NCBI RefSeq assembly: GCF_030068605.1
Contig: NZ_JASJOU010000002.1
Location: forward strand, 62,001 to 126,000
Length of the DNA: 64,000 nucleotides
Origin: Xanthocytophaga agilis
Lineage (GTDB): Bacteria; Bacteroidota; Bacteroidia; Cytophagales; 172606-1
Direction: 5' to 3'
Below, one piece after another: positions 57,921 through 60,263 of this stretch. The position numbers were made by a program, and so were the translations under genes. Below the pieces are notes generated by a model that ran no database searches, was not told the origin of the DNA, and was given only the letters and a program-made list of their open reading frames with translations. The stretch's first letter is position 1. Each line of letters starts with the position of its first letter.

Positions 57921-58074
57921 ATTTTCTTCCTTTACATTACACAACAAAAGTAGAAGTAGCATATTAGAACCATCTTAAAACAAAATTAAATGTGTATTAA
58001 AAATGGTATTTCTTCTGGTATTGGAAAGACTTTCCTGAAAAATCACTAAACTCGCTCCCGAAAAATGTATTGTT

Positions 58075-58437
58075 ATGGGATATAGGGTATCTATTTATAG
58101 ACGAGAAGTAAAATCAAAACAACTGGCATACGAAGGAGAAGATTTCTTTGAGAATACAGACAACTTGCTTCCCTTCACATCTGACCAAAAAGAAACACTC
58201 GAAAAACGCCTGTTGAACTATGGGTATTTACTACAGAATGAAAATGCTACAGGCAAACAATTTGAGCATAAAAAGCTAAAAGGTGTTTTGGCTTTACTCA
58301 CAGATCATGCACTCTACTTCGAATCCGGTTTTACTGAACAAGGTGTATTTGAAATATCTATGACAGCCTCTGAGTTTACAGACACAGATGAGTTTGTCAA
58401 ATATGATCCGCAAAATGAGGGATGGGAAGAGTTTTAA
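58075..58437 (+). CDS. Small cytoplasmic protein of unknown function
   Basis: 120 residues, acidic, no signal or membrane segment. It begins MGYRVSIYRREVKSKQ and has LEKRLLNYGYLLQNENATG and a C-terminal acidic tail. I have an impression of similar short proteins in Bacteroidota but cannot name a family. Divergent from the envelope genes; the array of 28-bp repeats begins 84 bases after its stop codon. Confidence 0.65.
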   Translation: MGYRVSIYRREVKSKQLAYEGEDFFENTDNLLPFTSDQKETLEKRLLNYGYLLQNENATGKQFEHKKLKGVLALLTDHALYFESGFTEQGVFEISMTASEFTDTDEFVKYDPQNEGWEEF

Positions 58438-58520
58438 CTTGCTGGTTAGATTTGCAACAAATACTTTGAAAAATACTTCACAGGTACAAATTACTATTTC
58501 TACAAGAAATTTAAAGGAGA

Positions 58521-58705
58521 TGATCAAGAACCAGTATTTTGTAAAACTGACCGGAGTTCCAGTCATTAACAAGGATGAACTAAATTCCGGTCAACAAAAA
58601 AGTTGAACATTATTCGAATAATTTTGAGAAATGATCGGTATTCTGGTCAAACACAAAAGTGATTCAAACTCTGGTCATTTTATAAATTGGTAATCACATG
58701 TCTCT
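58521..58705. repeat. Degenerate 28-bp tandem array of imperfect palindromes
   Basis: Five 18-bp units start at 58548, 58576, 58604, 58632 and 58660, exactly 28 bases apart. The first is TGACCGGAGTTCCAGTCA, the fourth TGATCGGTATTCTGGTCA; consensus about TGAnCnnnATTCtGGTCA, an imperfect palindrome. A weaker copy begins at 58521 (27 bases earlier) and a decayed one at 58688. Two palindromes, ATTATTCGAATAAT (58609-58622) and TATTCGAATA (58733-58742), lie in or beside it. The array sits between two convergent genes, an unusual place for operators. Spacers are A-rich and not coding (28 is not a multiple of three). Confidence 0.65.
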
Positions 58706-58772
58706 CATTATTTTTTCTATCCGTTTGAACTATATTCGAATAGCTGAGAGAATGTATACTTACTCATTCTCA

Positions 58773-60077
58773 TTAATTATCGACATCCCGTATTAAGGGT
58801 ATTCCATCGGCAATACGTTTTTCATAAGAAACCTGGAATCTGCTCAGATCTGGTTTATATTTTCTCTTCCTTTTTAATTCATACTGATAGATTGTTTGCC
58901 CCAACTGGTAGAGAAACGGATGAGCAATTGTATCATATTCATATTTATTGTCATTCAATATCCCATCACTATTTACATATAAAGTAGCTGTCAGCATATA
59001 CTCCACCTTATTTTTAAAATCTGCCACATACGAAACATCCGTCATAAACCCATACGCCCACCCTACTTTATTAAAGACCCTCACCCCTTCTGGTAGTTGG
59101 TGATGCAGGCTATCCTGAAAAAAGAATTTTACATACGTATCATAATATTGTGAAGGATCATAGTTGGGATAGTTGGTCTCGCCCGGAAATTGAGACAAAT
59201 ATTGATATACAAAGGAATAATCCTCTTCTGTCAATTGGAACTTCTGTCTGGCCTTTACTGAAGTAGGAAACATAACAGATTGCAATATCTGCTGCAATGA
59301 TTGCAAGGGTAGCTTATTTCGCATAGTAAAGTCAAAAGGCTCCTGTACCAGACTATCTTTGCTATCATAATATCCTTTACCAAGTTTTTCCACTCGCCGA
59401 AAGTCAAAAGCATCCCGGTTATAAGCAGCAGGCTGGCTAAAAACCATTTCGCCTTTTTCAGTAATAAAACGAACCGGATTCGTATGTCGGTTTTCCTCTG
59501 GTGTCATTCGAACAAACCGATGCGTAATACGGGTATCCGGATAACCTTTGGCATGTAACGACCGATTGATGGTCTCCTGTCCGACAAATTCATACATACG
59601 GCTATAGGCATCATTATCACTTACCAGAAAGGCCTTTTTTATAAAATGAGCAATAGATGGATAACCGTTAAGAGAAGTAGGGTCTTTCCATTCTCTGGAC
59701 TGATTACTATAGGCACTGTCAAACTGCATAGCAGTATTTTTTGTAACTCCAACAACATTCAACTGGTTTATTTTTTCCAGTGATAGCAAAGCAAGAGGCA
59801 ATTTGACTGTAGAAGCAGGATTAAAATAGAGTGTGCTATCTACCTGATACCTATAGTGTGTAAAGGAGGGAGCATTGTGCTTATCCCGATCTATACGGGT
59901 ATAGATAATCTGCAACCGATATTCCTGAGAATGTTGAATAACTTGCTGAAAAATAGCATCTGTATTTTTAGTAAATAGCTTTTTCAGAAAGTTGTCTGTT
60001 TGTACCTGCCCTAAACAAACTGAGGCAATCAAATAAAATGGAAAAGTTATAAGAAAGTGGTATGTATAGTTTTTCAT
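58773..60077 (-). CDS. Class A beta-lactamase-fold serine hydrolase, exported
   Basis: 434 residues from the ATG at 60077, with a signal peptide (cleavage near CLGQ). The active-site signatures are: S-x-x-K in NPASTVKLPLALLSLE, and S-D-N in FLVSDNDAYSRMYEFVG. The third motif, normally K-T-G, reads K-V-G (FNKVGWAYGFMTDVSY). An omega-loop-like TPEENRHTNPV follows S-D-N, but I cannot assign the class A glutamate. This is the beta-lactamase2 family; whether it hydrolyses beta-lactams or another peptide-like bond is open. It is much longer than secreted class A enzymes (about 290). Confidence 0.8.
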   Translation of the reverse strand: MKNYTYHFLITFPFYLIASVCLGQVQTDNFLKKLFTKNTDAIFQQVIQHSQEYRLQIIYTRIDRDKHNAPSFTHYRYQVDSTLYFNPASTVKLPLALLSLEKINQLNVVGVTKNTAMQFDSAYSNQSREWKDPTSLNGYPSIAHFIKKAFLVSDNDAYSRMYEFVGQETINRSLHAKGYPDTRITHRFVRMTPEENRHTNPVRFITEKGEMVFSQPAAYNRDAFDFRRVEKLGKGYYDSKDSLVQEPFDFTMRNKLPLQSLQQILQSVMFPTSVKARQKFQLTEEDYSFVYQYLSQFPGETNYPNYDPSQYYDTYVKFFFQDSLHHQLPEGVRVFNKVGWAYGFMTDVSYVADFKNKVEYMLTATLYVNSDGILNDNKYEYDTIAHPFLYQLGQTIYQYELKRKRKYKPDLSRFQVSYEKRIADGIPLIRDVDN

Positions 60078-60263
60078 GGTTACTAATATACAAAACCACA
60101 TCCAAAAATAAATTAACCTTGTATGAACTTAGAAATCAGTCCGAATTTCCATTTCAGCTATTCCTTTCCTTTATTCTGAATTATTTCGTTTTTTCTAAAA
60201 CACTACTGACATACTGCTGTCACTTCTCTGTTGTTTCTTTGTAATACACTAAACAACAAGACC

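Follow-up and report, generated by a model that had tools for sequence, protein, structure and literature searches.

The window analyzed here is a stretch of 64,000 nucleotides from Xanthocytophaga agilis, and positions given below without a locus name refer to it. In its right part, a plus-strand gene encoding a 120-amino-acid protein (58075 to 58437) converges with a minus-strand gene (58773 to 60101) whose product carries a Beta-lactamase2 domain (PF13354; E value, 1e-14). The left gene has no Pfam match and has an ortholog at locus L148 of genome G001, taken to be Xanthocytophaga flavus YF14B1 (the source genome of the window is G000). Four of five relatives carry homologs of the right gene at 48 to 49% identity; none was found in G002, a genome of the same genus that is 72% complete.

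The gap between these genes holds a row of 18-bp units, beginning 83 bp after the stop of the left gene. The five clear units, all given on the plus strand, are U-2 (TGACCGGAGTTCCAGTCA, 58548 to 58565, an imperfect dyad), U-1 (TGAACTAAATTCCGGTCA, 58576 to 58593), U0 (TGAACATTATTCGAATAA, 58604 to 58621), U1 (TGATCGGTATTCTGGTCA, 58632 to 58649), and U2 (TGATTCAAACTCTGGTCA, 58660 to 58677). Their starts follow one another at exact 28-bp steps, as an earlier note on this DNA had described, and a weak copy (TGATCAAGAACCAGTATT, 58521 to 58538, plus strand) begins 27 bp before the first clear unit. To these we add a further weak unit (TGAACTATATTCGAATAG, 58726 to 58743, plus strand), which lies beyond a spacer (58678 to 58725) at a start-to-start step of 66 bp from the unit at 58660. 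This terminal unit matches the terminal consensus at 11 of 18 positions and was assigned by its position; it is identical in the G001 ortholog. The units had been read as imperfect inverted repeats, which holds for most of them as 18-bp dyads. The exception is U0, which is not self-palindromic and is, by eye, the unit most alike between copies.

Autocorrelation over 58548 to 58677 was highest at lag 28 (0.57) among lags 12 to 45 and did not exceed 0.35 outside lags 27 to 29. Likewise, lag 28 ranked first over 58521 to 58705 (0.50). First-order Markov shuffles reached neither value, either at lag 28 (0 of 1,000 each) or when the maximum over all lags was taken (0 of 200). Over the wider interval from 58440 to 58780, the lag-28 value of 0.37 was reached by 2 of 1,000 shuffles at that lag and by 7 of 200 as the maximum over lags. 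A vocabulary-free palindrome score at period 28 was weak in the window, being matched by 7 of 100 shuffles and exceeded at another period; since this test was weak for many arrays, autocorrelation was used instead. Tandem Repeats Finder, another check proposed in the earlier note, failed, with no entry at the array at score 30. The statement that the array is not a CRISPR agrees with our reading of the units, which are degenerate 18-mers with 10-bp linkers and not near-identical repeats separated by unique spacers about 30 bp long. The placement of the units on one face of the helix was wrong: 28 bp corresponds to about 2.67 turns, so successive sites do not share a face, and three units span 84 bp, or about 8 turns.

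When the window array was used as a query against its own genome, 59 stretches matched at E values of ≤10 and 41 at ≤0.01, some of which are not arrays (e.g., L040, which has no core-model hit). Scanning 90 loci with the core model yielded 40 arrays above 40 bits in G000 and 37 in G001 that have no repressor gene alongside and are here called solo arrays. Comparison of the 40 G000 solo arrays with 39 G001 loci showed that both flanks were shared for 26, one flank for 6, and none for 8. The window locus (L048) and its G001 counterpart (L148) are 94.9% identical over 5 kb. The earlier note had named a lack of conservation and of other copies as evidence against its array; dozens of further arrays exist in the same genome, and the orthologous G001 gap has retained the array. 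Array L159 of G001 had no match at the place in G000 predicted by synteny. Among 29 genomes searched with the DNA query, two had the family, one of them being G000, a sample in which G002 is only 72% complete. A degenerate pattern of two phased units hit 48 times in G000 and 51 times in G001 but nowhere in the 146 further genomes sampled from the order, where a control pattern hit once. An exact 17-mer hit in IMG/VR, with no neighboring units by eye, was taken as chance. The open-access literature yielded no description of such arrays.

The solo arrays share an order of parts: variable left units, a U0-like unit near TGACCATTATTCGAATA, two further units, a step of 66 to 68 bp, and a terminal unit. 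Among 49 eligible arrays in both genomes, 37 have a terminal unit matching at least 13 of 18 positions, and in 28 of these 37 the terminal step is 66 to 68 bp. By hallmark unit, the 40 G000 solo arrays fall into subtype U, to which the window belongs (23 arrays), its sister subtype V (TGATTCGATTTCTGTTCA; 6 arrays), both (6), or neither (5). One G001 array (L137; G001:C22:105914-105959) contains a 46-bp palindrome that is perfect across one unit and the linkers on either side, as deduced from an identical 45-mer on both strands, one base apart.

Solo arrays were found preferentially between convergent genes. In G000, 19 gaps were convergent, 18 co-directional, and 3 divergent, compared with 64, 187, and 57 among 308 background open reading frame pairs taken from the G000 stretches analyzed and the window. 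The convergent excess was significant in G000 (19/40 versus 64/308; P = 0.0006) and in G001 (17/37; P = 0.0016), where most arrays are orthologs of those in G000. Divergent gaps were depleted in G000 with P = 0.12 against all pairs and P = 0.007 against gaps of at least 250 bp.

Complementarity between units suggested a structured noncoding RNA built of hairpins. Folding energy was lower than that of dinucleotide shuffles for either strand (mean z, −4.9 and −4.4; n = 36), and pairing of U-2 with U-1 and of U1 with U2 exceeded a column-permutation control that ignores relatedness (z, 4.7 and 4.1; 52 arrays, orthologs included). However, shuffling the order of units left the folding energy unchanged (mean z, −0.1 and −0.2; 36 arrays), and the folded-RNA reading was dropped for this reason. 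Furthermore, U0/U2 pairing showed no excess (z, −0.1), strand bias was absent, and Rfam gave no match within 58000 to 59300. As the fold is strong on both strands and independent of unit order, it is explained more simply by symmetric sites in double-stranded DNA, and an RNA appears highly improbable.

Dozens of dispersed intergenic copies could also be the product of a transposase spreading REP/BIME-like or MITE-like palindromes that have no function at each place. REP/BIME elements are described as palindromes scattered outside genes, with a preference for 3′ ends (PMC3733652), and the arrays resemble them in being extragenic and in favoring convergent or co-directional gaps. Changes in unit number between orthologs and the 8 of 40 solo arrays without a flank match among the compared G001 loci are likewise compatible with mobility. 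However, the Y1/RAYT transposase (PF01797) had no matches in G000 or G001, and synteny revealed no clean empty site at four G000 arrays lacking a matched G001 array. Two of these places (L185/L181 and L184/L245) hold short or eroded remnants, at L186/L244 the array is lacking from a region that also differs in other ways, and at L183/L179 synteny breaks off. Folding was equally strong on both strands, in contrast to REP stems, for which G-T pairing is reported (PMC3733652), and the arrays further differ from REP/BIME in lacking an order-dependent or strand-biased fold, in their strict 28-bp phase, and in the link of their family to xre genes. No GTAG or CGTC end tag, as found in REP/BIME, was apparent by eye in the printed units. 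Transposition alone would also leave unexplained the subgroup-specific site vocabularies in front of xre genes described below. Overall, mobile palindromes are an unlikely explanation.

Some loci with flanks homologous beyond the array carry a small XRE gene directly after it. Five XRE-A genes, three in G000 and two in G001, have an array directly upstream. These five arrays score 49 to 81 bits with the core model, which was built from the subtype of the window, and the half-sites TGACTGGAA and TGACCGGAA are common to that subtype and to the XRE-A-linked arrays. All five belong to subtype V, while none of the subtype U arrays classified lies beside an xre gene; at the window locus, too, no xre gene was found among the neighboring genes read.

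A tblastn search for the XRE protein family gave 17 matches in G000, 17 in G001, and a single weak one in G002. Regions upstream of 23 XRE-family matches, from the 34 tblastn matches in the first two genomes, were tested for periodicity over stretches picked after the sequences had been read. The best lag was 28 in 19 of the 23, with six site vocabularies (A to E and H). In 18 of these 19 regions, no more than 3 of 200 shuffles attained the value when the maximum over lags was taken; in L230, 59 of 200 did. Because class members are near duplicates, the independent count is nearer six than 19. Frequent half-sites are TGACTGGAA, TGACCATAC, and TGAACAGAA in XRE-A arrays, AACCTGTAT and AACCGGAGT in XRE-C arrays, TGCGGTTTA in XRE-D arrays, TGCGCATAG in XRE-E arrays, and TGAACAGCA in the XRE-H array (one locus), with mixed half-sites in XRE-B arrays. 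Steps of about 95 bp recur in the arrays linked to classes A and D. The remaining 4 of the 23 genes (L240, L243, L307, and L308) have no 28-bp array upstream.

The XRE-A protein passes the HTH_3 cutoff. Its best sequence match is a protein named DBP48; SinR (E value, 7e-5) and the 434 repressor (0.001) also match, and P22 C2 does so only at 0.057. Both SinR and the 434 repressor bind dyad operators. Comparison of recognition helices with site vocabularies gave a mixed picture. XRE-B and XRE-E have a common helix 3 (GLGQSNIS), and most 7-mers recur in both sets of linked arrays (66 versus 18 in shuffles). In contrast, XRE-A and XRE-C have helix-3 residues AQGNLSSL in common but share few array 7-mers (21 versus 16 in shuffles), and XRE-A and XRE-B differ in helix 3 yet share more (40 versus 19 in shuffles). 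Helix 3 of the L240 and L243 proteins is nearly the same as that of XRE-E, yet both genes lack an array; for subgroup F, helix 3 is close to that of XRE-E and the array is absent. The tblastn match of one XRE-A copy (L228; G001:C29:5977-6207) was flagged with one TAG. Its reading frame yields a 75-amino-acid protein ending there, which looks like a shorter C terminus and not a broken gene.

The xre genes lie among phage-like genes that vary between modules. Genes preceding the array encode an excisionase-like HTH_17 protein, a DNA helicase (phrog_16), a VapE/PriCT primase, an AAA_25 protein, and a weak match to VRR-NUC/resolvase; the array is followed by xre, small proteins, and, in several modules, an Amidase_2 endolysin. 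One module helicase matches the ResIII and REase_I models. No capsid, terminase, or integrase was recognized among the part of the module genes that was scanned, nor any restriction-modification (R-M) gene among the neighboring proteins scanned. A protein-level search of phage records returned 27 records, all below 60% identity. XRE-D has no relative in IMG/VR, and none of the 394 other genomes drawn from the class, a sample that excludes G001, gave a match to it at 1e-10. The earlier note had considered that the array might be part of a lost element, which is partly right in that xre-linked copies lie within phage-like modules. Many module loci, including L253 (7104 to 7230, reverse orientation), also carry a separate dispersed repeat of about 115 to 130 bp. 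At L045, L168, and L170, G+C-rich repeats (TGTAGGGGCG...CGCCC) between gene A and the array adjoin the XRE-A arrays.

In the A modules, a gene for an O-like replication initiator lies upstream of the array (L157 copy scanned). Phage iterons can be imperfect repeats of 18 to 19 bp. The arrays might be replication-origin iterons of the phage-like modules, bound by replication proteins instead of XRE. However, the replication gene changes with module type (O-like, AAA, or VapE primase), while the array directly precedes xre at array-bearing loci. Dozens of solo origins would presumably also be hard for a chromosome to tolerate. Iterons are very unlikely on these grounds.

Substitutions were counted over 26 orthologous pairs, with columns in stretches below 70% local identity removed. 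The outer TGA/TCA positions changed at 31 of 815 positions, the inner positions at 97 of 1,602, and the linkers at 127 of 1,377. In pair bootstraps, the ratio of outer to linker substitutions was 0.42 (0.24 to 0.64), that of outer to intergenic substitutions was 0.55 (0.30 to 0.95), and that of outer to all outside sequence, coding included, was not significant (0.74; 0.42 to 1.16). The contrast between outer positions and linkers was not significant in the 13 least diverged pairs (7/440 versus 21/733; P = 0.24). Whole arrays diverged as much as intergenic DNA (5.9% versus 6.3%; by a second measure, 6.5% versus 7.0%). Single pairs had at first suggested an array core far better preserved than the flanking sequence, but 23 pairs taken together did not bear this out. 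Indels of 26 to 28 or 56 bp made up 8 of 47 in arrays and 2 of 145 in intergenic DNA. Small indels were strongly depleted in arrays when pooled (29/5,123 versus 116/6,884), a depletion unsupported in pair bootstraps (0.55 [0.20 to 1.87] and 0.60 [0.22 to 1.16]).

These data bear on a neutral turnover of tandem repeats, in which arrays recombined out of modules would be alike only through gene conversion. An overall divergence close to that of intergenic DNA would be expected in that case, and multi-base unit replacements distinguish some orthologs (e.g., L011/L149). Pointing the same way, synteny between G000 and G001 ends at an array or close to one in several places (L183/L179, L020/L146, and L024/L143), as if arrays served as recombination points. 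Gene conversion between arrays could also mimic part of the selection signal by keeping outer triplets without selection. However, substitutions are rarer at outer dyad positions than in linkers or in intergenic DNA, the terminal step of 66 to 68 bp recurs, and so do steps of about 95 bp in xre-linked classes A and D. We consider neutral turnover somewhat unlikely. The evidence for selection on the arrays, drawn from these comparisons, is moderate; selection is likely but unproven. The earlier note had also raised a decayed minisatellite. The dispersal of the copies, an evolution that is slower at outer TGA/TCA positions than in linkers, and the recurrence of the same spacing with different sites at other XRE subgroups make this less likely.

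Solo arrays with other vocabularies also occur. Among 20 solo loci picked by a D-type pattern (L275 to L294), the best lag was 28 in 14 and 29 in 6, and for 18 the value was reached by at most 1% of shuffles. At these loci, a TGA half is joined to a TGC half in 31 of 85 in-phase units (e.g., TGATCGGAATTCACCGCA), compared with 5 of 117 units in A-type regions; such hybrid units are possible heterodimer sites. In one G001 solo array (L291, 1600 to 2000), D-type units give way to hybrid and then to C-type units in a nearly constant 28-bp phase.

Taken together, the dyad sites, their constant 28-bp phase, and the position of related arrays immediately before genes for DNA-binding XRE proteins make a multi-site binding array, as proposed in the earlier note, the best-supported reading of the sequence. 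The earlier note had also named a nucleoid or partition-type protein as a possible binder; the proteins encoded beside the linked arrays are phage-type XRE regulators. More specifically, we consider it modestly probable that the array is a row of operator sites for a family of small phage-type XRE proteins and that the window copy is a solo member in a convergent gap. The operators would be 18-bp dyads at a 28-bp step, and the proteins would be small XRE (HTH, Cro/CI-like) proteins of about 75 to 90 amino acids encoded in several phage-like replication/lysis modules of Xanthocytophaga. As no xre gene lies beside the window copy and its subtype was not seen beside one, the assignment of the window array follows from family resemblance, namely, shared half-sites, phase, core-model score, and arrays of mixed subtype. 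XRE-A would then bind both TGACCGGAATTCCGGTCA-type sites and the window array. As replication genes are also close to the linked arrays, the binder could instead be a different protein of the module. Each dyad may take up one XRE dimer, perhaps cooperatively, with neighbors set by the length and not the sequence of the linker. Upstream of xre, an array would autoregulate the switch of its module. In the window, bound protein would most likely act locally as a roadblock or boundary where the two genes converge at their 3′ ends, and all solo arrays jointly might form a sink for XRE proteins.

Phage XRE repressor operators of the 434/P22/lambda type and those of R-M controller (C) proteins resemble the xre-linked arrays in combining a small XRE protein with dyads immediately upstream of xre. 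The Xanthocytophaga arrays differ from both in that dozens are solo, away from xre, and in having a vocabulary for each paralog. In C.Csp231I, spacer length, not sequence, decides binding of the second dimer (PMC4321490), and the suggested placement of XRE dimers by linker length draws on this case. The rule resembles the fast-changing, fixed-length linkers of the arrays, whereas C.Csp231I has two sites with an 18-bp spacer and the arrays have at least five units at a 28-bp step. The suggested roadblock or boundary in the window follows by analogy from mycobacteriophage stoperators, numerous repressor sites that lie between genes, away from promoters, and have been proposed to stop elongation (PMC9283540). 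Stoperators are asymmetric 13-mers within the phage genome that are predicted to be bound by monomers; in contrast, the arrays are phased dyads in the host chromosome and not asymmetric sites scattered through a phage genome. When 17 module loci were searched for A, C, and D sites, in-phase units were concentrated in front of xre, apart from a few isolated matches elsewhere. A broader proposal is that genus-specific, phage-derived XRE paralogs have half-site codes of their own within a shared architecture (28-bp step, two blocks, and one wider step) and that solo arrays, including two-code hybrids, form a combinatorial, repressor-based system of roadblocks or boundaries at gene ends across the chromosome, recruited from phage-like modules. 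We put this forward tentatively and regard it as rather doubtful.

What appears to be new, judging from the DNA, is that XRE operator-type arrays of several specificities are dispersed as solo copies. Repressor operators usually form one switch; here, operator-like arrays are present at dozens of places away from repressor genes, in one genus. If they are not bound, they represent operator-like DNA that spreads by itself. If they are bound, they would be an example of phage switch parts turned into chromosome-wide architecture and would give a ready-made collection of XRE/site pairs in which to follow the divergence of recognition codes.
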